Source of the DNA: Deltaproteobacteria bacterium
GTDB taxonomy: Bacteria; Desulfobacterota; Desulfobulbia; Desulfobulbales; Desulfurivibrionaceae
DNA: 44,466 bases
Direction of reading: 5' to 3'
NCBI GenBank assembly: GCA_026388695.1
Contig: JAPLJH010000022.1
Span: 1-44,466, forward strand
The first letter of the stretch is position 1; each line of letters opens with the position of its first letter. The translations under genes were made by a program, and so were the position numbers. Shown here in pieces: positions 29,283-44,466 of this stretch. A model generated the notes under the pieces. It was given only the letters and a program-made list of their open reading frames with translations. It was not told the DNA's origin and ran no database searches.

Positions 29283-30257
29283 TTGAATAACCAATCACAC
29301 CACCAAAGCCCCGTCGAAAAACCGAACCACGCAGTAAAAAACATGCCTCTGAAACAGGATGCGAACGCTTGGACCCATTACTGGTCCAAGGCGTCCGCCA
29401 AGCCACGCGGCTGCCTGCCAGATTTGCCTGGCGTAGCGGCTGATCATATCCAAGAAATATGGCTACAATTCTTTGCCAGCCTTCCCCTGGGAGCACGGCT
29501 GTTGGACCTGGGTACCGGCGGTGGGGCCGTGCTTATCGAGGCACAAGCCTTTCGTCCCGACCTGCGATTAACCGGCGTCGATTACGCAACCGTGCTTCCC
29601 GAACTGAACAAAGCCATCACCCTGTATCCCGGGACCAGGCTTGAAAATCTTCCCTTTGATGATGGGAAGTTCGAGGCAATAACCAGTCAGTTCGCTATTG
29701 AGTACAGCAACGTTTCGGCTACGATACAGGAGGTCTATCGGGTTTTGGCTTTTGCCGGAAGTTATTTGTTTATCTGCCATCACGCCGACGGAGTGATCGT
29801 CCGGGATAATCTCCCTCGACTCAAGGCCCTCCGTGAGGCCATCTCCCCTGCCGGTCTGCTCTACACGGCCATCCAGGCAGTGCGCCAGCAGAAAAAATCC
29901 GCCCCCGAAACGTGGCAACAACTCGCCCGGATTTTTACCGCAACCCAACATAAGCATCCAGATCAATCCCTGGTAAAGGAACTGGCCGACGATATCGCCC
30001 GGATCATGGCCGGACCTGACAGCCTGGAAAAACTTCTGGCCATGCGCCAGGCAGTGGAAATGGAAGGCCAGCGGATCATGGCCTTGGAAAAAGGGGCCTT
30101 GACGGAAAACCGGGCCAAAATATTGGCCGAGGCGCTCTCCTCGAAACAACAGCCGGCGCATCTAGAAGTTGTGCATGTGCCGGGAGTCAGCGCACCCTTT
30201 GCCTGGCGGATAAGCAGCCAGCCCCGGATGATGGCACCCACCCGCCTAGGCGGATAA
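29283..30257 (+). CDS. Class I SAM-dependent methyltransferase
   Basis: This protein of about 324 residues has motif I (LLDLGTGGGAVLIEA), a following acidic residue (LTGVDYATVLP), motif II (FEAITSQFAIEYSN), and motif III (EVYRVLAFAGSYLFICHHAD), all in the order of the type 11 family. The C-terminal 150 residues are helical and may bind substrate. TTG at 29283 is the likely start, about 11 bp after GGGGGAG; ATG 29343 would remove 20 residues. It lacks the conserved cysteines of the arsenite methyltransferase ArsM, so I do not assign it that role despite the nearby ArsR operon. Confidence 0.85.
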   Translation: MNNQSHHQSPVEKPNHAVKNMPLKQDANAWTHYWSKASAKPRGCLPDLPGVAADHIQEIWLQFFASLPLGARLLDLGTGGGAVLIEAQAFRPDLRLTGVDYATVLPELNKAITLYPGTRLENLPFDDGKFEAITSQFAIEYSNVSATIQEVYRVLAFAGSYLFICHHADGVIVRDNLPRLKALREAISPAGLLYTAIQAVRQQKKSAPETWQQLARIFTATQHKHPDQSLVKELADDIARIMAGPDSLEKLLAMRQAVEMEGQRIMALEKGALTENRAKILAEALSSKQQPAHLEVVHVPGVSAPFAWRISSQPRMMAPTRLGG

Positions 30258-30265
30258 AAAAGCAC

Positions 30266-30315
30266 TTGACGCAACCCCGTGCCATAGCTAAATTGCCATA
30301 TGACTATTTAGCTAT
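30266..30315 (+). promoter_or_regulatory. Promoter and ArsR operator of the arsR-arsP operon
   Basis: A TTGACG -35 box at 30266-30271 is followed, after 17 bp, by a TAAATT -10 box at 30289-30294. An inverted repeat, ATAGCTAAAT at 30284-30293 and ATTTAGCTAT at 30306-30315, has perfect 10-bp arms around 12 bp and covers the -10 box. This is the usual place and shape of an ArsR-type operator, so repression relieved by metalloid is expected. Confidence 0.8.
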
Positions 30316-30332
30316 ATAACCTGGGGGTGCGC

Positions 30333-30680
30333 ATGAAAAATTTTGTCAAGGTCATGAAGGCCCTTTCCGACCCGAACCGGGTCAAGATCATCAAGATGCT
30401 CCAGCAGAAAAACAACCTGTGCGTCTGCGAGATGCGGGCTGTGCTGAAGCTGGCCCAGCCCACCGTATCCAAGCATCTCAAGGTTCTGGAAGACGCGGAG
30501 CTCATCGTCGGCAGCAAGGAGAAACTCTGGGTCAATTACCGGCTGAATACTACCAGCCCTTCTCCTTACGGGGCGGCCATGCTCAAACAACTTCACCAAT
30601 GGCTCACCGAGGATTCGGAAATACAGAAAATATTCAAAATTCTACCCGCCATCGACCGAAACAACATCTGTAAGTCTTGA
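30333..30680 (+). CDS. arsR: ArsR-family metalloid-responsive repressor
   Basis: This 115-residue winged-helix repressor has the CVC motif (C30-x-C32 in NNLCVCEM) at the start of the recognition region, the arsenite-binding site of E. coli-type ArsR. The helix-turn-helix is AQPTVSKHLKVLEDAELIV. The ATG at 30333 has a G-rich upstream stretch, and an in-frame GTG lies at 30327. It leads an operon with the ArsP-type permease, thioredoxin-like and universal stress protein genes. A matching palindrome lies over the promoter. The C-terminus contains another cysteine (NNICKS). Confidence 0.93.
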   Translation: MKNFVKVMKALSDPNRVKIIKMLQQKNNLCVCEMRAVLKLAQPTVSKHLKVLEDAELIVGSKEKLWVNYRLNTTSPSPYGAAMLKQLHQWLTEDSEIQKIFKILPAIDRNNICKS

Positions 30681-30691
30681 GGACTCCCGTC

Positions 30692-31771
30692 ATGCAGCCC
30701 GACAACCTACACAATTCGGTCGTAAACCCGCAATCCGCTCCGCTGCATGCGCCCTCGGCGAAAATTAAAATCCTCACCGGCCTTGCCGGGCTTGCTCTCT
30801 GGTTTTCCCTGTACCGGCAATTGCACAACCTGGCCGGATATCTTGCCTTTTCCCTGTTCGGCCTGACACCTGGCAGCCGTCTGGGCGAGGCCATGCTCTT
30901 CTTTTTCTACGACACCCCCAAGGTGCTGATGCTGCTCACCCTGATTGTTTACGGGGTCGGGGTGCTGCGCTCCTTCTTTACCCCGGAACGCACCCGGAAA
31001 ATCCTTGCCGGCAAGCGCGAATCCGTGGGCAATGTGCTTGCCGCCCTTCTCGGCATCGTCACCCCTTTCTGTTCCTGCTCGGCCGTACCGCTGTTCATCG
31101 GCTTTGTCACCGCAGGCATACCCCTGGGGGTGACTTTCTCCTTTCTGATCTCCGCTCCCATGGTCAACGAAGTCGCCCTGGTGCTTTTGTACGGCTTACT
31201 GGGCTGGAAGGTGGCGGCGCTCTATTTAGGAACCGGACTCCTAATCGCTATTGTCGCCGGCTGGACCATCGGTCGCTTGCAACTGGAGCACCACATTGAG
31301 GATTGGGTACGGGAGATGCATGTCAATGCCTCTGACATTCCAGACGAAAAACTGACTTGGGTCGAACGGCTCGGGCACGGCAAAGCAGCGGTGCGGGACA
31401 TCGTGGGCAAGGTTTGGATCTATGTGGTTTTGGGGATCGCGGTGGGAGCCGGAATCCACGGCTATGTGCCCGAGGGCTTCATGGCCTCGATCATGGGCAA
31501 GGGCGTCTGGTGGTCGGTACCGGCAGCGGTGCTGATCGGCATCCCCATGTACTCCAATGCCGCTGGCATCGTGCCGGTGGTTCAGGCCCTGCTCGGCAAA
31601 GGCGCGGCACTGGGCACGGTGCTCGCCTTTATGATGAGCGTCATCGCTCTATCTTTGCCGGAGATGGTCATTCTCCGGAAGGTGCTTAAGCCGCGACTCA
31701 TTGCGGTGTTCATTGGCGTGGTGGGCATCGGCATCATGCTGGTGGGCTATCTCTTCAACATCATTATCTGA
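30692..31771 (+). CDS. arsP: ArsP-type permease (DUF318 family)
   Basis: This protein of about 359 residues has roughly eight transmembrane helices and the family signature TPFCSCSAVPLFIGF. A second such region (SNAAGIVPVVQ) supports an internal repeat. A cytoplasmic loop lies between about residues 195 and 225. The ArsP family exports organoarsenicals and related compounds in some bacteria, but many members are of unknown substrate. Its place after an ArsR gene supports a metalloid role. I chose ATG 30692, 9 bp after GAGG; the frame is open 15 bp further upstream. Confidence 0.85.
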   Translation: MQPDNLHNSVVNPQSAPLHAPSAKIKILTGLAGLALWFSLYRQLHNLAGYLAFSLFGLTPGSRLGEAMLFFFYDTPKVLMLLTLIVYGVGVLRSFFTPERTRKILAGKRESVGNVLAALLGIVTPFCSCSAVPLFIGFVTAGIPLGVTFSFLISAPMVNEVALVLLYGLLGWKVAALYLGTGLLIAIVAGWTIGRLQLEHHIEDWVREMHVNASDIPDEKLTWVERLGHGKAAVRDIVGKVWIYVVLGIAVGAGIHGYVPEGFMASIMGKGVWWSVPAAVLIGIPMYSNAAGIVPVVQALLGKGAALGTVLAFMMSVIALSLPEMVILRKVLKPRLIAVFIGVVGIGIMLVGYLFNIII

Positions 31772-31784
31772 TAGGGAGTCAAAC

Positions 31785-32015
31785 ATGGAAATCAAGGTAC
31801 TGGGTCCTGGCTGCACGAAATGCCACGAAGCGGAGAAAATTATGCGGACCGTGGTTGAGGAGGCTGGGGTTGCCGCCACCATCGAGAAGGTCAGCGACTT
31901 TCAACAAATCGCCAAACACGGTGTTTTTTCCACCCCGGCGGTAGTCATCGACGGCCAGATCAAATGCGTCGGCAAGGTACCGTCCAAGGCCGAGGCCATG
32001 GGCTGGCTCAAATAA
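31785..32015 (+). CDS. Small thioredoxin-like redox-active disulfide protein
   Basis: This 76-residue thioredoxin-fold protein has the CTKC motif (C10-x2-C13), the cis-proline motif STPAVVID, and a further cysteine in IKCVGK. It matches the short 'redox-active disulfide protein 2' type that is often next to ArsP/ArsE-like permease genes. It starts 13 bp after the permease gene and so belongs to the ArsR operon. A TTG frame running further upstream overlaps the permease gene and is not credible. Confidence 0.88.
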   Translation: MEIKVLGPGCTKCHEAEKIMRTVVEEAGVAATIEKVSDFQQIAKHGVFSTPAVVIDGQIKCVGKVPSKAEAMGWLK

Positions 32016-32056
32016 GGAAAGGCCCGTGGTACGCCAGATCACCAAGGAGGGATAAA

Positions 32057-32929
32057 ATGTTCAGAAAGCTATTGTTGTGCGTTGATCCGTACCCGCCGAG
32101 CAATACCCTTGTTTCCCATGCTATTGCCCTGAAACAAGTTGGAGCGGAGGAGACTATCTTAGCGCACATTCTCGCGGACGCCCCCCTTGAACTTGACACC
32201 ATGCTACGCGAACAGGCACGGCCGGAGATGGAGCAACAGAAACAAATTCTTGAAGAAGCGAAACTCAAGGCCTCCATTGCAATGGAGGCGGGGATTCCTG
32301 CCCATGCCCTCAATGCTCTCGCGGAAAAAGAAGACGCATCCCTCCTCATCATTGGCACGCATGGCAGGGGACTATTAGAATCCATGGTGTTGGCTGGCAG
32401 CCCGCTGGGCAATGTCTCCTCCAAACTTCTCCATCTGAGTCATCGGCCTATGCTTCTCGTTCCGAATGCATTGCCGACCAAGGAAACAGGGAATGCACCA
32501 CCGGAACTTTTTTCTCATCTCCTTTTCCCCACCGATTTTTCCGACACGGCGGAGATTGCTTTTGCCTATCTCGAAACCATAGTCCGCGCCACACAGTGTC
32601 CGGTAACCTTGCTGCATGTCCAGGACCGGTCCCGACCGGCGCCGCATCTCGGCCATCGTCTCAAGGAGCTGCAAGAACTTGACGGACTCCGCCTACAACG
32701 ACTGCAAGGCTGGATAAAGGGATTGGGCGCACCGGATGTGCGCATCGACCTCATCCAAGGAAATCCAGGGGATGAAATTGTGAAGAGGGCCAAATCCTGC
32801 GGCTGCTCCCTGATCCTCATGGGAACCCAGGGCAAGGGCATCACCAGGGAAATCCTGCTGGGCAGCGTGGCGCACCATGTCGCCCGGCATGCCGCGCAGC
32901 CAGTTCTTTTTATTCCGGCTCTCCTGTGA
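32057..32929 (+). CDS. Universal stress protein with two UspA domains
   Basis: This 290-residue protein is two UspA domains in tandem (about 1-145 and 150-290). Each shows the ATP-binding style ending: LIIGTHGRG...LGNVSSKLLH.SHRPMLLVP in the first and LILMGTQGKG...LGSVAHHVARHAAQPVLFIP in the second. An AAGGAGG site precedes the ATG. It is probably co-transcribed with the thioredoxin-like gene. Such proteins help cells survive stress; the specific role here is inferred from the operon. Confidence 0.9.
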   Translation: MFRKLLLCVDPYPPSNTLVSHAIALKQVGAEETILAHILADAPLELDTMLREQARPEMEQQKQILEEAKLKASIAMEAGIPAHALNALAEKEDASLLIIGTHGRGLLESMVLAGSPLGNVSSKLLHLSHRPMLLVPNALPTKETGNAPPELFSHLLFPTDFSDTAEIAFAYLETIVRATQCPVTLLHVQDRSRPAPHLGHRLKELQELDGLRLQRLQGWIKGLGAPDVRIDLIQGNPGDEIVKRAKSCGCSLILMGTQGKGITREILLGSVAHHVARHAAQPVLFIPALL

Positions 32930-32972
32930 GCAGCATGAAATTGAAGAGACTACGAATGGACGGGAGGGCACC

Positions 32973-33497
32973 ATGCTACTGAAGGGATGGACAGAGGAAA
33001 TAACCCGGGCAGAATGTCGGCCCGAGGCCCAGACAGTGCACTGCATTGCCAGGCTGGAGCAAAATATCGGAGAGGCGATTCCCTATCTCAACGCAGTGTT
33101 GGGAGGCTATATCTATATCAATGAGCCCCCTTCCGTGGCCTTTCGCAACCAAGGCAAACTCATCTCGGTGCATGCCGATCACATCGCCATCAATGCCTTG
33201 CAGGACGTCGATGAAGCAAGAAAAATCCTCCTGTGGCTACAACAAGAAATAAACGATGCCTGGGAGAGAAGGGCTGAAATCACCCCCAGCTTTAAGGCCG
33301 CCCCACGACCGCAGGTCTTGCAGATTCTGCGACTATTGCCCAAAACGAATTGCAAAAAATGCGGTCAACCCACCTGCATGGTCTTCGCCGCCCTGGCGGC
33401 AGAGGGCGGCAAGGGCGCGGAACATTGCCCGGCTCTGTCGCCTGAAGCGAGAAAACAGCTTACCGCCTATCTGGAGCGTTTTCCTTCTGATGGGTGA
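32973..33497 (+). CDS. Fe-S cluster protein with N-terminal unknown domain (paralog 2)
   Basis: This 174-residue protein is a clear paralog of the protein at 28710. The NAVLGGYxYI, GKLISVHADHIAIN and WLQQEIN segments match, and the C-terminal cluster motif is C127-x2-C130-x4-C135-x16-C152. The two copies are collinear over their whole length. It follows the universal stress protein gene in the ArsR operon and precedes the DUF1566 gene. A GGGAGG site precedes the ATG. Function is not known. Confidence 0.82.
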   Translation: MLLKGWTEEITRAECRPEAQTVHCIARLEQNIGEAIPYLNAVLGGYIYINEPPSVAFRNQGKLISVHADHIAINALQDVDEARKILLWLQQEINDAWERRAEITPSFKAAPRPQVLQILRLLPKTNCKKCGQPTCMVFAALAAEGGKGAEHCPALSPEARKQLTAYLERFPSDG

Positions 33498-33547
33498 TTG
33501 CGCCGACTCCGGCAAGCACCCCCATAACAACCCAAAGGAGAAAACCC

Positions 33548-34006
33548 ATGAAGAAAAACCACTTCTGTCTCGTGTTCGTGCTGTTGGCCGCTTTCACCGC
33601 CTCGCTGGCCCTTGCCGGGGAAGCGCGACTGGTGCAGCTTGACAACTCCATGGTCAAGGACACCAAGACCGGGCTCATCTGGCAGCTCGACAAAAGTCCC
33701 GAACAGTTCGACTCCAAGGAAAAAGCGGCCCAATATGCCAGCTCTCTTGAGCTGGGCGGCTACCATGACTGGCGCCTGCCTACCCTTGAAGAACGCTGGG
33801 ATCTGTTGCGGGTCTTTGTTATCAAAAACAATGGCGGCATCGAATTCCCGAAATTCGACAACAAATACTGGACGCTGGAGACACACAAGGGAACACAACC
33901 GATCAAGCTCGATATCTCCTGCATGTGCCGGGGCGACCAGGAGATCGAATACAAAAATACCGGCTATGTGCGGGCAGTGCGGGGGCCGCAGGTGGGCAAC
34001 CAATAA
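33548..34006 (+). CDS. Secreted DUF1566 protein
   Basis: This 152-residue protein has a Sec signal (about 1-23, ending SLALAGE). A DUF1566/Lcl-type domain follows, with the typical DTKTGLIWQLD start, GGYHDWRLPTLEER, and the YVRAVRG end. Such domains are found on surface or periplasmic proteins, sometimes linked to binding of ligands, but have no fixed function. Two cysteines (ISCMCRG) could bind metal or form a disulfide. It follows the Fe-S gene by 50 bp. Confidence 0.8.
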   Translation: MKKNHFCLVFVLLAAFTASLALAGEARLVQLDNSMVKDTKTGLIWQLDKSPEQFDSKEKAAQYASSLELGGYHDWRLPTLEERWDLLRVFVIKNNGGIEFPKFDNKYWTLETHKGTQPIKLDISCMCRGDQEIEYKNTGYVRAVRGPQVGNQ

Positions 34007-34100
34007 TTGCTGGTGTGCCCCTGCGCCTCGAAAAAATAGCTGAATTCGGTGGTAATCAAATTGTAAAATACCTCCATAATCTTCATAAAGGAGCTTCACC

Positions 34101-34607
34101 ATGTCAACACTGTCAAAAGCAGCGCTGGGAATTCTGGTTCTTTCCCTTGGCTGTTCTTCCATGTCGTATGCACTCACCCCTGAAGAAGCGAAGACTGTGC
34201 AAAAAGTCGCCGTTGAATTTCTCGGCTCTACCCCGGAAAGCACTTTTCTGATTGCTCCCGAAGCTGTTTATGAGCGCATTCAGTCGAGTGCCAAGGATTA
34301 TGTCTTGGTGGATGTCCGTTCTGCCAAGGATTTCCAAGCAGGGCATATCCCCACGGCGATTAATATCCCCTATCGAGACATTGCCAATGCGCAAAACCTT
34401 GCCAAGCTTCCCCGTGATAAGGAAATCATCCTCTACTGCAATTCCGGCCATGAATCGACCAAGGTACTCTCTATTCTCAAAATGCTCGGCTACAACGCTT
34501 ATGGAATGAAATGGGGAATGATGGCATGGAATGTCGTCCCATCCACAGCGGCAACGCTCAAGGCCATCGCTACTGGAACTGCTGGAAGCTACCCTTTGGA
34601 AAAATAG
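34101..34607 (+). CDS. Exported rhodanese-like protein
   Basis: This 168-residue protein has an N-terminal signal; an LGC near residue 18 could be a lipobox but the -3 residue is not ideal. A single rhodanese domain (about 50-165) has the active cysteine C113 in YCNSGHES. The DVRSAKDFQAGHIPTAINIPY stretch is the classic rhodanese opening. In Ext clusters a rhodanese-like lipoprotein (ExtH) partners the porin ExtI; here the gene is 7.5 kb away, so a link is only possible. An AAAGGAG site precedes the ATG. Confidence 0.87.
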   Translation: MSTLSKAALGILVLSLGCSSMSYALTPEEAKTVQKVAVEFLGSTPESTFLIAPEAVYERIQSSAKDYVLVDVRSAKDFQAGHIPTAINIPYRDIANAQNLAKLPRDKEIILYCNSGHESTKVLSILKMLGYNAYGMKWGMMAWNVVPSTAATLKAIATGTAGSYPLEK

Positions 34608-34668
34608 CACGGTGATCGCTCAGCGAATATGATCGGGGATAAAAAAATTTCGTTGCGGGTAATTTCCC

Positions 34669-35661
34669 ATGGCGCATAAACACAACCACGATGGTCACGA
34701 TCACGCCCCTGCCGATTTCAGTCGGGCCTTTGCCATCGGCACGGCGCTGAATCTCGCCTTTGTCTTGGTGGAAGGGGGTTACGGCTTCATTGCCAACTCC
34801 CTGGCGCTGGTAGCCGACGCCGGACATAACCTGAGTGATGTCATAACCCTGCTCCTTGCCTGGGGCGGCATGATCATGGCCAAACGCGGGGCGACGGCCA
34901 GGCACACCTTCGGATTCAAAAAAGGCACCATCTTGATCTCATTGGGCAGCGCCCTGTTTCTCTACGCCGTTATCGGGATCATCCTCTGGGAGGCGGTGGC
35001 CCGCCTGCGCGCCCCTGCCGAGGTCAATGGCATGGCCGTCACCGTGGTGGCCGCCATCGGGGTGGTGATCAACACCGTCACCGCGCTGCTTTTCGTCTCG
35101 GGACGGAAAAACGATCTCAACATCAAAGGCGCCTTTCTACACATGGCCGCCGATGCCGCAGTCTCGGCCGGGGTCGTAGCAGCCGGATTCGCCATCATGG
35201 TCACCGGCTGGAACTGGCTCGACCCGTTGATCTCCATGGCCATCGCGATCATTGTCCTTATCGCCGGATGGGGCATGCTGAAGGAGTCCCTCCATCTCAC
35301 CATGGCAGGCGTCCCAGCCCATATCGAGGCCGAGGCGGTGCTCGACTATCTCACCGGACTGCTGGGGGTGCAGTGCGTTCACGATCTGCACATATGGGCG
35401 GCCAGCACCACGGAAACCGTGCTCACCGCCCATCTAGTCATGCCAGGGGGCGGCGATGACGATTTTCTTCACCATACCGCCGAACACCTGCACCACGATT
35501 TCAATATCCACCACACCACCTTACAGATAGAATTGGAGGACGGGAAAGGACTCTGCCATACCAACAACAAAAGTCAAGGGTGCTGCTGGCCCGGAAAGGC
35601 GGCGGCACCCGGAGCTGCGCAATTCCAACAATCTCAGCCATCCACAGGAGGCGACCGATGA
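34669..35661 (+). CDS. Cation diffusion facilitator (CzcD-like)
   Basis: This 330-residue CDF transporter has an N-terminal His-rich stretch (HKHNHDGHDH), six membrane helices with the HxxxD pairs in ADAGHNLSD and MAADAAVS, and a cytoplasmic C-terminal domain (about 205-300). It ends in a Cys- and Gln-rich tail. It exports divalent metals such as zinc, cobalt or cadmium. The stop codon overlaps the start of the following rhodanese gene by ATGA (35658-35661), which indicates coupling. Confidence 0.92.
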   Translation: MAHKHNHDGHDHAPADFSRAFAIGTALNLAFVLVEGGYGFIANSLALVADAGHNLSDVITLLLAWGGMIMAKRGATARHTFGFKKGTILISLGSALFLYAVIGIILWEAVARLRAPAEVNGMAVTVVAAIGVVINTVTALLFVSGRKNDLNIKGAFLHMAADAAVSAGVVAAGFAIMVTGWNWLDPLISMAIAIIVLIAGWGMLKESLHLTMAGVPAHIEAEAVLDYLTGLLGVQCVHDLHIWAASTTETVLTAHLVMPGGGDDDFLHHTAEHLHHDFNIHHTTLQIELEDGKGLCHTNNKSQGCCWPGKAAAPGAAQFQQSQPSTGGDR

Positions 35662-36113
35662 AAACACCATCCGTACCCGCAGCCTTTCTTGCCTTGACGC
35701 TGTTTCTCATGCTGCCAGCCACGTCCAACGCCGACAAGTTTGACGAATATCTGGCGGGCTTCACCTACCAGGAACGCAAGGATATGAAGATCGAGAGCAA
35801 GGAGCTGGTGGGGCTGCTCCAAAAAGGCGAAGCCCAGCTCATTGATATCCGTTTTCCCGAAGAGGTCGCGGCCTGGCGGATGGGCTTTGCCAAGAATATC
35901 CCGCTCAACGAACTGCCCTCGCGTCTGGGCGAGCTGGATAAGAATAAACTCATCGTCACTGCCTGCCCCCATAATGACCGCTCGCATATAGCCAGAATGT
36001 ATCTCACTACCAAAGGGTATCAGGTCAGGTACCTGCATGACGGTCTGATCGGGCTTGCCGAACTACTCCGGGGCGACGCGGCCAGGGATTTCGTCACTGC
36101 CCCGGCACAATAA
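35658..36113 (+). CDS. Periplasmic rhodanese-like protein
   Basis: This 151-residue protein has a Sec signal (about 1-25) and a rhodanese domain. The active-site loop is CPHNDRS with C103, and the opening is LIDIRFPEEVAAWRMGFAKNIP. It starts in the stop codon of the CDF gene. The frame upstream extends into the CDF gene but has no signal peptide. It could carry persulfide or selenide sulfur in the periplasm and pass it to the thioredoxin encoded next; this is inference. Confidence 0.83.
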   Translation: MKTPSVPAAFLALTLFLMLPATSNADKFDEYLAGFTYQERKDMKIESKELVGLLQKGEAQLIDIRFPEEVAAWRMGFAKNIPLNELPSRLGELDKNKLIVTACPHNDRSHIARMYLTTKGYQVRYLHDGLIGLAELLRGDAARDFVTAPAQ

Positions 36114-36172
36114 GATGCTTTGCAATAGCTCCCGTTTGAAAGGGAGCATCCCTACAACATCAAGGAGAACGC

Positions 36173-36574
36173 ATGAAAACAATTGTCAGATTTGCATTGT
36201 TACTGGCCGCATTGGTAGTCCTGCACACCTCTAACAGCACGGCGGCAAGCACGCCTTCGCTGGTGCCGGTTCCCGACACGGTGACCATGGTCGATCTCGG
36301 CGCCACCTCCTGCATCCCCTGCAAGATGATGGCGCCCATCATCGAGGAATTGGAAGCAGAGTACCGGGGCAAGGCGGCGATCATCTTCATCGATGTCTGG
36401 AAGAATCCAGACGAGGGCAAGAAATTCAAGGTGAGCATGATCCCCACCCAGATTTTTTTCGACCGCGCAGGCAATGAGGTCTACCGCCACAGCGGCTTCA
36501 TGGACAAGAAGACCATTGTCGCCCAGCTTTCCCAAATGGGGGTTGCCCAACCCGCCTCCGGGAGTGGTAAGTGA
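36173..36574 (+). CDS. Periplasmic thioredoxin-like protein
   Basis: This 133-residue protein has a signal peptide (about 1-24) and a thioredoxin fold with CIPC (C47-x2-C50) and the cis-proline in SMIPTQIFF. An AAGGAG site precedes the ATG. Its stop overlaps the start of the broken CcdA-like gene (TGATG at 36572-36576). The pair would be expected to move reducing power from the cytoplasm to periplasmic thiols. Confidence 0.88.
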   Translation: MKTIVRFALLLAALVVLHTSNSTAASTPSLVPVPDTVTMVDLGATSCIPCKMMAPIIEELEAEYRGKAAIIFIDVWKNPDEGKKFKVSMIPTQIFFDRAGNEVYRHSGFMDKKTIVAQLSQMGVAQPASGSGK

Positions 36575-37114
36575 TGGACACCATTTTTCTCCTGGTCAAT
36601 GAATGGATGGGCGCGGGCATCGCTCTTGCCGCTCTGGGCTGTTTTCTCTGGGGAATGATCAGCGTCTTGCTCAGCCCCTGCCACCTGGCCTCGATCCCAC
36701 TGGTGGTGGCCTATGTGGGCGGCCAGGAAAAACTGGTCAAGGGCAGGCAGGCCGTACACTACGCAGTGTTGTTCAGTGTCGGCCTTTTCCTGACCATCGT
36801 CCTGGTGGGGGTGATCTGCGCCCTGCTCGGTAGGATGCTGGGGGATGTGGGGCCGTACTGGACCATGGCCGTGGGAGTGATTCTGCTCTGGGTGGCCGGT
36901 GACATGCTGGGCATTGCCAAGTGCTCCGTGGCTCATCCTTCTTTTTGCCATCGGCCACTGCCTGCCCATTGCCGTGGCTGGCAGTTCCACCGCCACGGTG
37001 AAACGGCTGCTGGCCAGTTCCTCCTTCGGGGAAGCCAGCGCCTGGTTCCGCAAGGGGGCGGGGATGCTGATCGCCGGACTGGGGATATATTTTCTGATCA
37101 GGCCCTTTGTGTAA
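36574..37114 (+). pseudogene. CcdA/DsbD-like membrane protein, broken by internal deletion and frameshift
   Basis: The first about 116 residues carry the CcdA-like N-terminal half, with the conserved cysteine in LLSPCHLAS and three to four helices. After GIAKC at about 36924 the frame no longer makes sense. The family-like C-terminus (LILLFAIGHCLPIAVAGSS... WFRKGAGMLIAGLGIYFLIRPF) continues in another frame from about 36932 to the stop at 37114. About 50 residues of the usual middle, including the second conserved cysteine region, are missing at the junction, so this is a deletion with frameshift and not a one-base slip. The protein is probably non-functional. A sequencing or assembly error cannot be excluded. 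Confidence 0.8.
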
Positions 37115-37142
37115 AAGCAGGGCTGTTATTCGCTTGCCACGC

Positions 37143-37181
37143 AAAAACGGGCTGCCGATCTTTCGGCAGCCCGTTTTTTTT
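37143..37181. terminator. Bidirectional intrinsic terminator
   Basis: AAAAACGGGCTGCCGA (37143-37158) pairs with TCGGCAGCCCGTTTTT (37163-37178) around a 4-nt TCTT loop, and T tracts lie on both sides. It lies between the broken CcdA-like gene and the convergent molybdoenzyme gene and terminates both transcripts. Confidence 0.93.
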
Positions 37182-37205
37182 ATTTCCCTTTCGGAAAACC
37201 GCTGA

Positions 37206-40200
37206 CTATACCTTCACCAGCTTCACCTTGGTGTCATAAAACGAGACACTCCCGCCCACCTTGTCGATCATGCAGGTGTTTTTAAGATGCGGGTCCACCC
37301 ACATGGCGGCATTGGCGTTGATGCCCATAGCGCGGCGCGGATCACCCTTGATCACCTTGCCGTCGATGGTCTGATCCACGGCACCGGTGGCCCAGTGGCC
37401 CTGGCCATGGAGAACGGTGATGATGCCAGGACGGATGGTTTCCGTGACCTGCACCTTACCGACCATCGGCTTCTTTGTGCCGTTTTTCAGATTCCAGCTT
37501 CCTTCCGTATTGGTAGCCGAAATAACCTTGACTTTATCCCCGGTCTTGAGCCCCAACCGCTTAGCATCGCTGGCATGGATGACAATGCCGTTCTCCCCCG
37601 TGGAGTCGTTCAGGTACTGCTGGGTGATGGTGCGAGACTTGGTCATCCGCACGTCCTTCTGGGTGATCATGTGCAGGTCGTAGCCCTTGGACTGCTCGGT
37701 GGGCGGACGGTCCAGGGTGTCCACGATGGGCATGTACTTGGCCATGCCCAGGTAGTGCTTACCGGTGAAGGCGTCCTTACACTTGGCGGTCTTCTCCTGA
37801 TAGAGGTTGATGTACTTGCCCCACTTGTTGGCCACTTGGTCGCCCTTGTAGCTGTTCTCCTGGGTTTCGAAACGACCGCCCCGGTTCAGGACATGCACCA
37901 CCTTGGCGAAGCTCGCCCCGGCAATGGCTTTCCAGCGATCCACGTCAAAAACGTTCTTGGGCAGATGCCTGCGGGACTTGGTAAACAGCTCGATCTCCGC
38001 CGCAGAGGCGTCGGCCACCGGCTCCTTGCCGTCGGTGGCCACATTGGCCACCATGCGGATATAGAAGTCGTCGGGCCGGGTCAGGGGCTGGCCTTCGCCA
38101 AAGCCGCTGGGCCCGAAGCCCGGCAGGCCAAGTTTCTCGGCCAACGCCAGCCAGACCGCCTCGTAGGAGATGGGCTGCTGCTCGCCGAATACGGTGACGA
38201 TCTCGTTGGGCGACGGGATAACCGGCTGGCGGATGGGCTGCACCTTGACCGGCATGTTGGGGTGCGAACCCTGCATCTCCCAGCGCTCCAGATAGTGGAG
38301 ATCCGGGAAGATGTAGTCGGCGTAGACGGTGGTCACCCCGATGGTGATGTCGCTGGCAAAGTAGAGCGGGATGCGCTCAAGATTGACCAACGCCTCGATC
38401 TGGGTGTGCCCGGCGGGCAGGGAGTAGGTGGGCGCCCCACAGTAAGAAAAAAGCGCCTTGATCGGGTACGGGTAGGCATCGGCGCAGGAGGGGATGATCT
38501 CCTCGTAGACATCCGAGGACAGCGGCCACCAGTTGCGCTTAGCCGGGTATTTCGTCGCGTCGAAGATGGTGGACTCTTCGTACTTGGCGTCGTGGCGGAT
38601 GATGGAGAGGCCAAAGGCCTTGCCCGCCTTGGGAGTGATCTTCTTGAAATTGAAGGGCTGCGCCTCGGTTTTGGTGCCGTCGGTGTTGAAGGTGGAGGCC
38701 ACGATCATGCCGCCCTTCCAGTCGAAGTTGCCGATCAGCAGATTCAGGGCATACAGGGCCGAGATGTTGTAAAAGCCATTGGTGTGCTGGGCCGGGCCAC
38801 GGTGCATATCCACACAGGCCTTCTTGCCGTAGCTGGTGAACTCCTTGGCCACCTCCTCGATCACCTTGGCCTCAATACCGCAGATTTTAGCGTACTCGGG
38901 GATGGTTTTTTCGCGCACCGTGTCCAGCAGCACCTGCAAACCGCTCTTGACCTTAATTTTCTTGCCGTCCTTGCCTTCCAGCTCGGCGGTGACGAAGAGG
39001 TCGCCGACCACGGCTTCCTTTTCATCGTTGGGATCAAAGGCCATTGGCTTGCCGCCCTGCATGGCCACCAGGTATTCGAAGGAAAACTCCTTGCCGTCCT
39101 TGTCCTTGCGGGTTTCCTTGTCCTTGAGGCCGATGTCGGAAGCGCGCAGCAGGCTTGAGGGGTTGCCCTCCTTGTCGAGCTTTACCAGCCAGGCGGCGTT
39201 GCACCAGGTGGTCTCCTTGCCAGCTGTGGCCGCAGCCTTGTTGGCGTTGCCCAGGTATTTAGCGTCGAAGCGCTTGTTTTCCAAAATCCAGCGGGCTGCC
39301 CCGTTGGCAAAAGCAGCATCGGTGCCGGGCAGCACCGGCACCCAGCGGTTGGCCTTACTGGCCAGCTTGGAAAACCGGGGGTCCAGCACGGTGATCTTCA
39401 GCTTGCCGTCGGCCAGACGCTGGGTGATGCGCGGGCTGCGGTTGGATGGGCCGTAGTTGGCGTCAAAGAGATTGGCCCCGACAAACATGATGTACTCGGA
39501 ATTCTCCTGATCGGCCTGCCAGTAAAATTTTTGACCATCCTTGAAGGTGTCGCCCACGTACTGCTCGCTCAAGGCCTTGGAGGCGAAGTAAAGCGACCCC
39601 TGGCAGACCGTGGTGTGCCCATGGGTATTGGCCGTGCCGAACTGCTCGGTGAAGCGCTTGGCAAAATCGGCGCGCCCGCCTTTCTTGCGGCCCCACATGT
39701 AGACGAACTGGTTGTTCTTGGGGCCGAAGTCCGGATGGTCCGGGTCGATGAGCTTGTCGAGATTTGCGGCGTGCTTGACTTTGAACTCGGCGATGGCCGC
39801 CAGCTTCTCTTCCTGGGTCTTCTTCTTGCGCAGAGCCGCGACATCCTTGCCCATCTCCTCGTAGACCTTGGCGTCTTTAAGCGCGAAGATCTCTTTCAAG
39901 CCCGCGACCTGGCGGTTCTCCTCGCCGGGTACATGCTTGAAAAGCAGGCCGCCAGCCACGATCTCGCCGATCGCCTGGTCAAAGGGGATTGCCTGCCACT
40001 TGCCCTCGCCGCGCTTGCCCGCCCGTTTCAGCACCCTGGTGATCCGATAGGAGTCGTAAGCGCCCTGATGCCCGGCCTGACCCTTGGGACAGATGCCGCT
40101 GTCCAGCTTGGCGGCCACGCCAACATCCTCTTTCATGGGCAGATGCGGATGGAGGGTGAAGGGATTGTATGGGTTGCCGTCGATCTTCACCGCCACCCCG

Positions 40201-40454
40201 TCCAGCACCTTGACCTTGATGCCGCAGCCGGTGTTGCAGTTGAGGCACACGGTGTACAGGGTGTTTTCGGCCTTCATCAACTCATAGGCCTCGGCGGCGG
40301 TCAGCTCCCCGGCCTCGACCCGGGCGATCAGCATATGGGCGAAATCCAGCTGGCTCGCGGCCAGGGCCGCGCAACCGGCCAAGGCGGTTTTTTGCAGAAA
40401 ATCCCGCCGGGACAGGCCGGGCTGTTCTTCCTTGGTTTTTTTCAGATTATTCAT
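37206..40454 (-). CDS. Tat-exported molybdopterin oxidoreductase, TtrA/SrdA-like, catalytic subunit
   Basis: This 1082-residue catalytic subunit has a Tat signal (SRRDFLQK at 15-22). A 4Fe-4S site, C70-x2-C73-x3-C77-x44-C122, follows in the FdhF/PsrA-type place, and C284 in THGHTTVCQGS is a likely Mo ligand. A molybdopterin-dinucleotide domain lies at about 960-1060 (GIVIHASDAKRLGLKTGDKV). Size and layout fit tetrathionate, selenate and arsenate reductase relatives (TtrA, SrdA, ArrA); substrate cannot be read from sequence. It is the last gene of the five-gene operon beginning with arsR at 43087. No NrfD-type membrane anchor is encoded in the operon. Confidence 0.9.
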   Translation of the reverse strand: MNNLKKTKEEQPGLSRRDFLQKTALAGCAALAASQLDFAHMLIARVEAGELTAAEAYELMKAENTLYTVCLNCNTGCGIKVKVLDGVAVKIDGNPYNPFTLHPHLPMKEDVGVAAKLDSGICPKGQAGHQGAYDSYRITRVLKRAGKRGEGKWQAIPFDQAIGEIVAGGLLFKHVPGEENRQVAGLKEIFALKDAKVYEEMGKDVAALRKKKTQEEKLAAIAEFKVKHAANLDKLIDPDHPDFGPKNNQFVYMWGRKKGGRADFAKRFTEQFGTANTHGHTTVCQGSLYFASKALSEQYVGDTFKDGQKFYWQADQENSEYIMFVGANLFDANYGPSNRSPRITQRLADGKLKITVLDPRFSKLASKANRWVPVLPGTDAAFANGAARWILENKRFDAKYLGNANKAAATAGKETTWCNAAWLVKLDKEGNPSSLLRASDIGLKDKETRKDKDGKEFSFEYLVAMQGGKPMAFDPNDEKEAVVGDLFVTAELEGKDGKKIKVKSGLQVLLDTVREKTIPEYAKICGIEAKVIEEVAKEFTSYGKKACVDMHRGPAQHTNGFYNISALYALNLLIGNFDWKGGMIVASTFNTDGTKTEAQPFNFKKITPKAGKAFGLSIIRHDAKYEESTIFDATKYPAKRNWWPLSSDVYEEIIPSCADAYPYPIKALFSYCGAPTYSLPAGHTQIEALVNLERIPLYFASDITIGVTTVYADYIFPDLHYLERWEMQGSHPNMPVKVQPIRQPVIPSPNEIVTVFGEQQPISYEAVWLALAEKLGLPGFGPSGFGEGQPLTRPDDFYIRMVANVATDGKEPVADASAAEIELFTKSRRHLPKNVFDVDRWKAIAGASFAKVVHVLNRGGRFETQENSYKGDQVANKWGKYINLYQEKTAKCKDAFTGKHYLGMAKYMPIVDTLDRPPTEQSKGYDLHMITQKDVRMTKSRTITQQYLNDSTGENGIVIHASDAKRLGLKTGDKVKVISATNTEGSWNLKNGTKKPMVGKVQVTETIRPGIITVLHGQGHWATGAVDQTIDGKVIKGDPRRAMGINANAAMWVDPHLKNTCMIDKVGGSVSFYDTKVKLVKV

Positions 40455-40490
40455 AACTCCTCCAGAGAGATAGTTTCATGCGGGGCGGCG

Positions 40491-41237
40491 TTAGCGGTAC
40501 AGGGTTTCCAGCTTGTCGTTGGACACATAATAGACCCTGGGGGCCGTGCCCTTGCCCGCCTTGAGGATCTGCACCTTGTTGGCCTTTTTCACCTGGGCGA
40601 TCAGGCTTTTGGGATCGTTCTCGTCGCCGAAATACCCAGCCCGACCGATACAGGTGGTGATGCACTGAGGGAGCATGCCGTTTTGCAGGCGATGCACGCA
40701 GAAATGGCATTTACGGGCATTGCCGATGGGCTGGTTCTTGCCGGAGCGCGGCCATTGCTTGCCGTACTCAAAAGAGGGCATGGTCTCGTATTTCTGGATG
40801 GAGGGAGTGCCTTCGCCATGAAATTTGCCCGCATCCATGGTCCGGGCGCCATAGGGACAGGCCGGGACGCACTTGCCGCAGCCGATGCATTTGGCGTAAT
40901 CGATGGGCACCGTGCCCGCGCCGATGCCCTTGGTTTCCTTCCAGGTCGCCTCACCCTTGGCCGGGCAGGCATCCACACAGGGCGGCTTGTCGCACTGCAT
41001 GCAGGGCCGGGGCAGAAAGGTCCGGGAAACCTTGGGGTACTTGCCCTGCTCGTATTCGTACACCGGGCGGTAGTGCATCTTGGGGGGCAGCTTGTTTTCG
41101 GAAACGCAGGCAATGGTGCAGGCATGGCAGCCCACACATTTGCGCAGGTCGATGAGCATGGCCCACCGTCGCTCTTCGGGCTTTCTTTGCAGCGCCTGCG
41201 CCAGCTCTTCGTGCATGGTAACGAGAATGTCGTTCAT
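40491..41237 (-). CDS. Four-cluster ferredoxin subunit (PsrB/TtrB/ArrB-like)
   Basis: This 248-residue protein has the electron-transfer fold of molybdoenzyme partner subunits. The clusters are bound by CVGCHACTIAC, CMQCDKPPCVDAC, CIGCGKCVPAC, CHFCVHR and a late CITTC. I chose ATG 41237, preceded by AAGGAG; the frame is open for another 27 codons which do not look like protein. A stretch of about 40 residues between the third cluster motif and CHFC is longer than in PsrB. It lacks a signal peptide and is probably carried across by the Tat signal of the large subunit. Confidence 0.92.
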   Translation of the reverse strand: MNDILVTMHEELAQALQRKPEERRWAMLIDLRKCVGCHACTIACVSENKLPPKMHYRPVYEYEQGKYPKVSRTFLPRPCMQCDKPPCVDACPAKGEATWKETKGIGAGTVPIDYAKCIGCGKCVPACPYGARTMDAGKFHGEGTPSIQKYETMPSFEYGKQWPRSGKNQPIGNARKCHFCVHRLQNGMLPQCITTCIGRAGYFGDENDPKSLIAQVKKANKVQILKAGKGTAPRVYYVSNDKLETLYR

Positions 41238-41254
41238 GGCTTCTCCTTGTGGTG

Positions 41255-41569
41255 TTATTTCGTATGACACTTGGCGCAGTTGCCTTTCACCGAAAAGGCC
41301 TTGGCGCCGTTGTGGCAAGCGCCGCAGGATGCTCCGGCCTGCATGGCCTTCATGGTCACGGCCTTGTGCTGCTTGCTGGTGGTATAGAGCTTGGAATGAC
41401 AGGCCTGACAGGCATTCCCCAGCCCGGCCACATGGAGTTCGTGACTAAAAACCACGTTGCCGCCCTTGTTCTGCATGGTGATTTCCCCGCCGCCGACCAC
41501 GGCAAAGGCTGGCGCGGCCATCAAAAACAGATGGGCCAGCACCGTCGGAACTGCCAGAACGCTTCTCAT
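41255..41569 (-). CDS. Triheme cytochrome c7-type protein
   Basis: This 104-residue periplasmic protein has a Sec signal (about 1-25) and three CxxCH sites (CQACH, CGACH, CAKCH). Each is preceded by histidines in the usual c7 spacing, with a GGNVVFSHELH start. It is of the c7 triheme class and carries electrons in the periplasm. I chose ATG 41569, with AGGAGG 6 bp upstream, over the GTG at 41596. It is encoded between the ACR3 transporter and the ferredoxin subunit, 17 bp from the latter, which suggests that it is the electron partner of the molybdoenzyme. Confidence 0.9.
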   Translation of the reverse strand: MRSVLAVPTVLAHLFLMAAPAFAVVGGGEITMQNKGGNVVFSHELHVAGLGNACQACHSKLYTTSKQHKAVTMKAMQAGASCGACHNGAKAFSVKGNCAKCHTK

Positions 41570-41613
41570 GATGCTCCTCCTCTTGAGTGTTTTCACATTC
41601 CACCAACCACTGC

Positions 41614-42702
41614 TTACGATTTGCAGCTCACATGGCAGACGCCAGCAGGGGTCTGCCTGACATGCGGAAAGTAACGACCCCGAAACCAGAGGGCCACATG
41701 AACCAGACCAAGAAGCACAGGCACCTCGACCAGCGGCCCGATCACTGCGGCAAAGGCCTGGCCGGAGTCGATGCCGAACACGGCAATGGCCACGGCAATG
41801 GCCAGCTCAAAATTGTTGGAGGCGGCGGTGAAGGACAGGGTTGCCGATTGCTCGTAAGTGGCCCCGGCTTTCATGGACAGGAAAAAGGAGACCAAAAACA
41901 TCACCAGAAAATAAATGGTGAGAGGGATGGCAATGCGGAGCACGTCAAGGGGCAGCTGCACGATGTATTCGCCCTTGAGGGAAAACATGACCACGATGGT
42001 GAAAAGCAGGAAGATCAGAGTAAGCGGGCTGATTTTCGGCAGCAATCGCTGCTGGTACCACTCCTCGCCCATGAGCCGTAGCCCGAGCAGCCGGGTGAAC
42101 ATGCCCGCGAGAAAGGGGATGCCAAGATAGATGAAAACGCTCTCGGCGATCTGCCCCATGGAGATGTCCACCACCGCGCCTTCAAGCCCCAGCCAGCCGG
42201 GAACGACGGTGATAAAAAGCCAGGCGTAGAATGAGAAAAAGAGCACCTGAAAGATGGAGTTGAAGGCAACCAGCCCGGCGCAGTACTCCCGGTCGCCGTC
42301 GGCCAGATCGTTCCAGACGATGACCATGGCGATGCAGCGGGCCAGGCCGATGAGGATCAACCCCACCATGTACTGGGGCTGGCCGGAGAGAAAAGTCACT
42401 GCCAGACCGAACATGAGGATTGGGCCGATCAGCCAGTTCTGGACCAGCGAGAGCAGCAGCACCCTGGCGTTGCCGAACACCTCGTGGAGCTTCTCATACC
42501 GTACCTTGGCCAGCGGCGGGTACATCATGAGAATCAGGCCGATGGCGATGGGAAGGTTGGTGGCGCCGACTTGGAAGGAGTTGATGACGTCACGGATGCC
42601 AGGATAAAGATACCCTCCGGCTACCCCGGCAAACATGGCCAGAAATATCCACAGGGTGAGGAAACGGTCGAGGAAGGAAAGTTTTCTGGGTGTTTCCGGC
42701 AC
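41614..42702 (-). CDS. acr3: ACR3-type arsenite efflux transporter
   Basis: This protein of about 362 residues has ten membrane helices and the ACR3 motifs: [18 protein letters not shown] in helix 4, with its functionally essential cysteine, and [18 protein letters not shown] in helix 9. It expels arsenite, and sometimes antimonite, from the cytoplasm. I chose GTG at 42702 because an AGGAGA site lies 6 bp before it. The frame is open a further 76 codons upstream, but that stretch runs through arsR. It ends with CHVSCKS, an unusual tail with two cysteines. It follows arsR by 37 bp. Confidence 0.93.
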
Positions 42703-42739
42703 GGCGGTTCTCCTAGGATTACCACGACCACGGAACAGT

Positions 42740-43087
42740 TCAGCGGCAGGCGGCCTCATTCTTGGTGACAAGGTAGGCGACAAGCGACTCCTGATCCTTT
42801 TTCCCTTGGGGCAGCGCGGCAAGTTCACGCCGGAGCAACTCCAGGGCCTTGTGCTGGAGGGGGTTCTCCTCTCCGGCCAGACTATAATACATCCACAGCC
42901 CTTGACGACGCCCCGCGACCCAACCGGCATTGCGCAGGGTGGCGAGATGGCGGGACACCGTGGATTGCGGCAGATCGAGCACGGTCATCAGATCGCAGAC
43001 GCACCGTTCTCCGCGGGTCAGGAGGCCAAGGATTCTGAGCCGAGTTTCATCGCCCAGGGCCTTGAAAATTGGTGCGGTGGTGTGCAT
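42740..43087 (-). CDS. arsR: ArsR-family metalloid-responsive repressor (second copy)
   Basis: This 115-residue winged-helix protein has CVC (C29-x-C31 in ERCVCDLM), as in E. coli ArsR. The helix-turn-helix is [21 protein letters not shown]. It is only distantly similar to the ArsR at 30333, so the two did not arise by a recent duplication. It leads the operon with acr3, c7, ferredoxin subunit and molybdoenzyme. A GGAGAAGGAGA site precedes the ATG. A palindrome in its promoter lies at 43126-43149. Repression should be lifted by arsenite or antimonite. Confidence 0.93.
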
Positions 43088-43125
43088 GGGGTACGATTCT
43101 CCTTCTCCACAGACTCACTTATTTC

Positions 43126-43149
43126 TTATATCTGGATATACGGATATAA
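43126..43149. promoter_or_regulatory. Probable ArsR operator before the second arsR
   Basis: TTATATC at 43126-43132 and GATATAA at 43143-43149 form perfect 7-bp arms around 10 bp, with more dyad symmetry inside. It lies 39 bp before the start codon of the divergently oriented arsR (read on the minus strand), where an ArsR protein would bind. Confidence 0.65.
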
Positions 43150-43217
43150 CACAAGAGAAATTACAGCCGCAGACATAGAATGCCAACAAAAGTCGTTTTT
43201 ACAAAGAGATATTTTTC

Positions 43218-43670
43218 CTACAACGTAACACCCATCCGCTCTATCGTAATGGCAAGGCCCGCCTTGACAACCCCGCCGCGAACGACCTTGGCAAAAATCC
43301 CTTCCTTGGGCATGATGCAATCCCCGGTGGCCTTCTTAATGGCGCACCCGGCATTATGACATTCCTTACCGATCTGGGTGACTTCGAGCACCACCTTGCC
43401 GTCGATGACCAGGCGGTCGCCGATGGCAAGCGCGGTCAGCTCCAGGCCCCGGCAGACGATGTTCTCGGCAAATACCCCGTGCTTCAGGTGGGGCATCTTC
43501 TGTTTCACCGTATCGATGCTTTCCCCGGCAAGCAGGGAGACCTGCCGGTGCCAGTCCCCTGCATGGGCATCCCCGTCGATCCCCCAGTTTTCCTTGAGGC
43601 GAATCTCAGACACCTCTTTCTTGACCATGCCTTTTTTTTCGCTGGTGCAAACCGCTTCGACCCTTCCCAT
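43218..43670 (-). CDS. MOSC domain protein
   Basis: This 150-residue protein is a stand-alone MOSC domain, with VTQIGKECHNAGCAIKKATGDCIMPKEGIFA, the conserved GDAHAGDWHRQVSLL segment and the last VKAGLAI strand. MOSC domains are found in molybdenum-cofactor sulfurases and in other proteins that handle Mo or sulfur. It lies near a molybdoenzyme operon but in a separate unit, so a link to cofactor maturation is plausible and not shown. I chose ATG 43670, preceded by AGGGAGG; codons further upstream are in the next gene's 3' region. Confidence 0.88.
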   Translation of the reverse strand: MGRVEAVCTSEKKGMVKKEVSEIRLKENWGIDGDAHAGDWHRQVSLLAGESIDTVKQKMPHLKHGVFAENIVCRGLELTALAIGDRLVIDGKVVLEVTQIGKECHNAGCAIKKATGDCIMPKEGIFAKVVRGGVVKAGLAITIERMGVTL

Positions 43671-43690
43671 ATGCCCCTCCCTGTTGATTG

Positions 43691-44338
43691 TCATTCGAGG
43701 ATAAACCCGGCAACCGGCAGCCCCTTGCCCCAGGCGCCCCAAGCGCCGTCGTGGATATCCAGGGTTTGGGCGGCGCTGTCGTAAGTGGCCTTGATGTTCG
43801 ACTCCAGACTGCACTTGCGGTCATAGTTGGTGTGGGTAAAGGTCAGTCGGTAGACCGTGGCACTTTGAGCAACGACCTCCTCGACATAGGCAACATGCCC
43901 GGTGGGCATCTTTCTCCGGCCATTGGCAGCAAGAATGAGTATACTGCCGGGTTTGGGGATAAGCGAGGTGTTGCCGCGCCATTTCTCACAGGTAAACCAG
44001 GTAAGCGGACCGTTTTCATGACCGGAGCGACAACTGATAATGCCGCTCCGGCAGCGGGCAAATGGGAGACTCTGAGGTTCGCAGCGGTTTCCCTTGCCCC
44101 CTGGACGCAACTGGAAGCATTCATCCGTATCGCGCCCCTGCCTGCCAAAGTTGGCTCGGAACTCCTCCAAAGAAAAAGGCTGGTCAGGAGACACCCCCGT
44201 CGTCGCAGGCACGGTTCCGGTCTCCTCCATCGCGTCCTGGCCCGTCGAAAGGGCCGCCTGTGATTCCGGATCACCGCAGCCGAACCTCAACAGAATACAC
44301 AGAAAAATTGTGACCACCCGGGCAGTGCTTTGCTGCAT
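43691..44338 (-). CDS. Lipoprotein with a possible CHAP-like domain
   Basis: This protein of about 215 residues starts with a lipoprotein signal and a weak lipobox (LRFGC). The C-terminal half contains PKPGSILILAANG and GHVAYVEEV, the arrangement seen around the catalytic histidine of CHAP cysteine amidases. A cysteine in WFTCEKWRG precedes it, but the usual order of the catalytic pair is not fully clear. Several other cysteines may form disulfides. The frame is open upstream to 44425, but ATG 44338 gives the signal. The family assignment is tentative. 44339-44466 shows nothing I can name. Confidence 0.6.
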   Translation of the reverse strand: MQQSTARVVTIFLCILLRFGCGDPESQAALSTGQDAMEETGTVPATTGVSPDQPFSLEEFRANFGRQGRDTDECFQLRPGGKGNRCEPQSLPFARCRSGIISCRSGHENGPLTWFTCEKWRGNTSLIPKPGSILILAANGRRKMPTGHVAYVEEVVAQSATVYRLTFTHTNYDRKCSLESNIKATYDSAAQTLDIHDGAWGAWGKGLPVAGFILE

Positions 44339-44466
44339 GAAAATTCCATTCTGCTTTGGTTGCTCTGGGGCGCATTGCACCCTGCTCCTTGCGCGCATCA
44401 TAGCAGACCCACCCACCCTTGACAATGCCAGGCGCCAGAGCCTTACGAATTGCGGCAGAATAGAGT

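Follow-up and report, generated by a model that had tools for sequence, protein, structure and literature searches.

An ArsR-led operon ending in a molybdoenzyme

The stretch of DNA analysed here, hereafter the window, is contig JAPLJH010000022.1 (44,466 nucleotides) of a deltaproteobacterial draft genome (GCA_026388695.1; 2.58 Mb, 87% complete). On its minus strand, five genes defined with a hexamer-based caller follow one another in the order arsR, acr3, c7, B and A, separated by gaps of 37, 44, 17 and 36 bp, exactly the order and spacing given in an earlier note on this DNA, the original prediction. They encode, in turn, a metalloregulator, an ACR3 transporter, a small triheme cytochrome, an iron-sulfur (FeS) subunit and a large molybdoenzyme predicted to be exported by the twin-arginine translocation (Tat) pathway (Table 1). 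Co-transcription of all five is likely, because the gaps are short, a palindrome lies upstream of arsR and a terminator-like hairpin lies behind A.

The acr3 gene starts with GTG, preceded by AGGAGA, and c7 with ATG, preceded by AGGAGG. The c7 product carries three CxxCH motifs within a single domain and scored 88.1 bits with TIGR04257 (nanowire_3heme; cut-off 40) and 69.1 bits with PF14522. In subunit A, three molybdopterin domains (PF00384, PF01568 and PF04879) exceeded the Pfam cut-offs, the Tat signal model TIGR01409 scored 23.1 against a cut-off of 16.7, C70, C73, C77 and C122 form the four-cysteine FeS motif, and C284 aligns with the ArrA cysteine at the molybdenum-ligand place. None of the genes of the operon encodes a membrane anchor of the NrfD/TtrC type. 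Compared with the counterparts in a genome of the same genus (G013; A 96% identical), the ratio of nonsynonymous to synonymous substitution rates was 0.08 for A, 0.06 for B, 0.05 for acr3 and 0.15 for c7, indicating that these four genes are under purifying selection; the comparison covers these four, G013 having no arsR at the corresponding place.

A TtrA-like clade without an NrfD anchor

Known enzyme families were considered as a home for subunit A. The best-scoring curated model was that of TtrA, but A reached only 482.3 bits with it (NF011567; cut-off 1750), and the annotated TtrA sequences (L205, L209) branch elsewhere in the tree. Membership of ArrA was likewise rejected (NF041714, 128.7 bits; cut-off 1600), the eight ArrA-like rows forming a separate group, as was membership of PhsA (207 bits; cut-off 694), the Psr/Phs-like rows also being separate. 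Model scores and trees thus place the catalytic subunit outside TtrA, PhsA and ArrA, in support of the original prediction. ArrA-like genes themselves, present in 51 of the 249 genomes of the source class, scored 360-1157 bits and in none of the 249 genomes reached the NCBIfam ArrA cut-off of 1600, so that this cut-off would miss them.

Within a large TtrA-like group, A belongs to a clade of 38 members, recovered with a support of 0.997 by FastTree (127 rows) and of 99 by a quick IQ-TREE run (74 rows). The relatives were the best 80 of at least 469, a sample biased towards close ones; duplicates (ten loci) and rows shorter than 880 residues were excluded, and the ArrA-like and Psr/Phs-like rows served as the root of both trees. 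As a lead, with the caution that the deep branches are long, these trees suggest that TtrA is a closer relative of A than ArrA or Psr/Phs is. Two traits of the group of TtrA, SrdA and the alternative arsenate reductase are found here as well, namely the cysteine at the molybdenum-ligand place (C284) and the B-then-A gene order. Excerpts of Wells 2023 (PMC10100899) describe a seemingly novel lineage that is sister to this group. An AlphaFold model of A (mean predicted local distance difference test score 71.5) gave general matches to the dimethyl sulfoxide (DMSO) reductase family, with perchlorate reductase and ArrA first and query template-modelling scores of 0.39-0.48 among the 50 matches listed; these matches do not tell family members apart.

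Close homologues in the source class come from records titled Deltaproteobacteria and Desulfobulbaceae. Genomes with the c7-B-A signature are of the Desulfobulbaceae type, of the Geobacter type or from Anaeromyxobacter, and examples of lower identity come from records under titles such as Nitrospirae, Spirochaetia and WOR-1. Loci L198 and L204 concern genome G290, in which two members of the clade lie about 10 kb from each other, and G293, in which two homologues are broken into several frames.

Taken as a whole, the clade is free of the NrfD anchor, in place of which a c7 is frequent, both traits being patchy. None of the 38 members had an NrfD match closer than 1.5 kb on the strand of A, with a model that overlooks distant anchors (that annotated in L209, for example), whereas the other 75 non-reference rows had NrfD in 47 cases, c7 in one and neither in 27. 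A c7, called when at least two CxxCH motifs were present, adjoins B-A in 22 of the 38 members, 21 of them with three CxxCH and one (L100) with two. Among the 16 members without c7, the contig end is too near in three and another multiheme cytochrome lies upstream in three. Both the operon content and the clade therefore bear out the earlier claim that the anchor is absent and that c7 takes its place. The c7 is also kept where arsenic genes are absent, a point raised with that claim: 13 of the 22 c7-bearing members (for example L024, L025, L103, L193 and L200) show no ars genes in the available sequence up to 8 kb away. By contrast, the earlier view that lack of an anchor sets the operon apart from arsenate reductases was overstated, since excerpts of Duval 2008 (PMC2500031) describe some arrAB clusters without the C anchor gene, along with BCA clusters and an uncharacterised related clade.

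Compared with characterised systems, the operon resembles TtrBCA in that B precedes A, a cysteine occupies the molybdenum-ligand place and B is TtrB-like, but identity is about 29%, and the operon has neither TtrC/NrfD nor adjoining ttrRS. It shares with ArrAB(C) a periplasmic molybdenum enzyme paired with an Fe-S B subunit, as well as a GHW motif near the C-terminus of A, but falls in a separate tree group and has the reverse order of A and B. A plasmid operon of Citrobacter arsenatis LY-1 (L206, 6013-10817) likewise sets a TtrA-like enzyme between ars genes; this B-C-A operon, however, is 31% identical, has a hypothetical gene between B and A, and lies outside the c7 clade. On the Pseudomonas plasmid pBYT5-2 (L209), a TtrA-like operon is followed by arsR.

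Arsenic genes, strain PSR-1 and the candidate substrates

Across the class, among the matches listed, ACR3 lies within 5 kb of the homologue at 6 of 29 places (G000, G013, G209, G040, G196 and G076), or 5 of 28 excluding the window (G000). The latter is the fair count, because the window had been chosen for its ACR3 trait. For comparison, linkage was found at 7 of 52 places for ArrA-like genes, the positive control, and at 1 of the 150 listed places for PhsA-like genes, the negative control; distances and the counts of 150 and 52 were read by eye from the listings. The difference from PhsA-like genes gave a Fisher p of 4e-4, or of 0.01 when the three places sharing the gene order of the window were all dropped (3/26). 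In the tree sample, acr3, arsP, arsE or a CxC-bearing arsR was found within 8 kb of 11 of 37 clade members (window excluded) and of 6 of the 70 relatives outside the clade (p 0.01), and matches to ArsP and ArsE lie within 8 kb of eight members, the window among them. The clade is thus tied to ars genes, and the metalloid link first drawn from ArsR and ACR3 in the operon held when measured against the PhsA-like control. This link probably formed more than once, since the position and strand of acr3 differ among clade members: upstream on the same strand in the window and L057, downstream on the opposite strand in L199, upstream on the opposite strand in L201 and downstream on the same strand in L080. 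Genes for PhnD-like binding proteins (12/38) and histidine kinases (10/38) also lie near the A genes of the clade.

A replacement of ArrA by the clade enzyme was considered, and the counts are too small to claim it. Eleven class genomes have a homologue of at least 72% identity, and among the matches listed only one of them (G210) also occurs in the set of 51 with an ArrA-like match. In the family of Geomobilimonas luticola (48 genomes), the homologue is present in nine and an ArrA-like gene in four, with an overlap of zero.

A close relative is found in Anaeromyxobacter sp. PSR-1, which respires arsenate without arrAB (PMC4432346). The best ArrA-model score in its genome was 92 bits, and its two TtrA-like genes (E <= 1e-20) both lie at one locus (L193, 4292-17844), where NrfD-B-A is followed by a kinase and a PhnD-like gene on the other strand and then by c7-B-A. 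The PSR-1 c7-B-A module is 72% (A), 77% (B) and 44% (c7) identical to that of the window, but it is flanked by the PhnD-like binding protein and the histidine kinase, where the window has arsR-acr3, and it adjoins a second, NrfD-type module. A TtrA-type PSR-1 protein is cited, in excerpts of PMC9751629, as a possible arsenate reductase without tetrathionate reductase activity (Muramatsu 2020). Given this proposal and the same c7-B-A in PSR-1, the word "undescribed" in the original prediction was too strong. Open-access titles and abstract openings yielded no account of a TtrA-type enzyme accompanied by a c7, or of the AnrA gene order, which is not proof of absence. With a TtrA-type arsenate reductase already proposed, the kind is not wholly new.

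Taken together, these results lead us to favour, with modest confidence, the reading that the operon encodes a periplasmic, anchor-free, c7-fed reductase, for arsenate in the first place and antimonate in the second, under ArsR control and coupled to ACR3 export. We infer its substrate, its direction, the electron step from c7 to B and the control by ArsR from known families. A and B would be exported as a pair through the Tat pathway, and periplasmic cytochromes would charge the triheme c7, from which electrons would pass through B and its four clusters to the FeS cluster and the molybdenum centre of A, where As(V) would be reduced to As(III), or Sb(V) reduced, in the periplasm. As(III) or Sb(III) entering the cytoplasm would bind the CxC site of ArsR, freeing the palindrome upstream of arsR and inducing the whole operon, and ACR3 would pump the trivalent product out. 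Leaving out the window weakened the linkage statistics but did not change our confidence in this reading, the chief basis of which is the PSR-1 case together with the clade.

Several observations weigh against it. No ars gene was found within 8 kb of 26 of the 38 clade members, and no c7 adjoins 13 of the 35 members having enough upstream sequence. Both c7 and NrfD are patchy on the 74-row tree, with 11 changes for the presence of c7 and 8 for that of NrfD, and in two clade members (L103 and L095) the opposite strand carries an NrfD-like gene no more than 2.3 kb away. In PSR-1, the TtrA-type protein of Muramatsu 2020 may instead belong to the second, NrfD-type module; estimated gene numbers for the two modules, 308 and 313 as called and about 324 and 330 when scaled to the published gene density, do not separate them. 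A possible electron feeder, QrcB, was not found in six genomes, where the controls gave no match either. According to excerpts of PMC9751629, one Desulfobulbaceae species shows its TtrBCA homologue only under thiosulfate disproportionation.

The thiosulfate result bears directly on a reading that we regard as unlikely, in which A acts on a sulfur compound, reducing tetrathionate or taking part in thiosulfate disproportionation, and the ars genes next to it belong to a mixed resistance island. TtrA is the best curated model, rhodaneses lie nearby, and a clade member without c7 (L096) comes from a Caldimicrobium metagenome-assembled genome (MAG). The same excerpts describe TtrA of Desulfolithobacter dissulfuricans as the most abundant of the proteins found only under thiosulfate disproportionation, and TtrAB without TtrC in the disproportionators Desulfobulbus propionicus and Caldimicrobium thiodismutans. 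A sulfur role therefore deserves weight; against it stand the score of A far below the TtrA cut-off, the placement of annotated TtrA elsewhere in the tree, the ACR3 linkage above that of PhsA-like genes and the ArsR gene at the head of the operon.

Antimonate as the physiological substrate, with a clade that is or includes AnrA-type reductases and with ACR3 and ArsR handling Sb(III), appears rather unlikely. AnrA, reported from Geobacter sp. SVR as a dissimilatory antimonate reductase, is a metalloid oxyanion reductase of the DMSO reductase family. Both ACR3 and ArsR act on Sb(III) too, and eight of the nine homologues in the family of Geomobilimonas luticola show 62-83% identity. PSR-1, however, is known for arsenate.

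The direction of the reaction was weighed in the same way. That A is an arsenite oxidase delivering electrons to c7 seems very unlikely: the c7 could as well accept electrons, and ArxA, of the ArrA lineage, runs in the oxidising direction according to a source seen in excerpt, but arsenate is the electron acceptor in PSR-1. Hosts of the clade also include Geobacter and Anaeromyxobacter, which are anaerobic respirers. Selenate or another oxyanion as the main substrate is the most improbable of these proposals; an excerpted source places SrdA in the same broad group and a Seleniivibrio woodruffii MAG has a clade member (L104), but that member has no adjoining c7. ArsR and ACR3, moreover, are not known to handle selenium oxyanions.

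Beyond the window, it is possible, and we propose it tentatively, that the c7 clade is a separate and widely transferred class of arsenate/antimonate reductases, which has lost the quinol-oxidising NrfD and is fed from the cytochrome pool by a dedicated c7, explaining arsenate respiration of the PSR-1 kind without arrAB. In PSR-1, c7-B-A offers one concrete candidate module for such respiration, and since arrA surveys miss arsenate respirers without arrA, the arrangement provides a searchable marker. It would also be a case of a complex iron-sulfur molybdoenzyme in which the membrane anchor gives way to a small soluble cytochrome, a change that alters the point of electron entry and whether the reaction can conserve energy.

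Operon borders and neighbouring genes

Table 1 Features of the window at and around the operon
Feature	Position	Strand	Basis
arsR, ArsR/SmtB metalloregulator	42740..43087	-	NF033788, 96.9 bits (cut-off 55); CVCDL motif (C29, C31)
acr3, arsenite/antimonite efflux transporter	41614..42702	-	TIGR00832, 451.6 bits (cut-off 282.8)
c7, triheme cytochrome c7, 104 residues, signal-peptide-like start	41255..41569	-	TIGR04257, PF14522
B, 4Fe-4S dicluster B subunit, TtrB/DsrO/ArrB-like	40491..41237	-	16 cysteines in four 4Fe-4S motifs
A, predicted Tat-exported molybdoenzyme, 1082 residues	37206..40454	-	PF00384, PF01568, PF04879, TIGR01409; trees
Candidate ArsR operator, 12-bp imperfect palindrome TTATATCTGGAT/ATACGGATATAA	43126..43149		Palindrome search; putative function
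Terminator-like hairpin between the operon and converging plus-strand genes	37143..37178		16-pair stem, 9 G-C pairs
MOSC-domain protein, upstream of arsR	43218..43694	-	PF03473
Second ArsR-led set (arsR2, ArsP_1 permease, ArsE-like thioredoxin)	30327..32015	+	Family matches

The arms of the candidate operator are 83% complementary with 0 nt between them, and 38 bp separate the operator from the arsR start downstream. The hairpin just behind A was listed by the terminator scan for the plus strand only (the scan gave 9 sites overall against 6.9 in shuffled sequences), but it could also serve the minus strand through an arm ending in TTTTT. A search of 30000-44466 with Rfam at gathering scores gave no match.

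A relative of the MOSC-domain protein directly adjoins acr3 in G013 (L023), where a PhnD-like protein and a histidine kinase are followed by moaA-mosc-acr3-c7-B-A, with arsR missing. Because the contig stops at 44466, PhnD-like and kinase genes may also exist past the window.

The second ArsR-led set probably belongs to the same arsenic island as the operon. It opens a plus-strand cluster (30327-37114) that converges on the operon and whose arsR carries CVCEM. ArsP_1 permease and ArsE-like thioredoxin genes come next, followed by those for a Usp protein, an Fe-S protein and an Lcl_C protein, and then by genes for two rhodaneses, a cation diffusion transporter (named from sequence), a thioredoxin and a DsbD_TM/CcdA protein. 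The gene for this CcdA-like protein is broken up into two plus-strand reading frames (36571-37239 and 36899-37114), where its counterpart in G013 (L023, 16335-17036) is one frame of 233 residues.

Elsewhere in the source genome (G000), contig C101 carries two molybdopterin-family genes (L001 and L002) with one in-frame TGA each, which suggests selenocysteine enzymes such as formate dehydrogenases.

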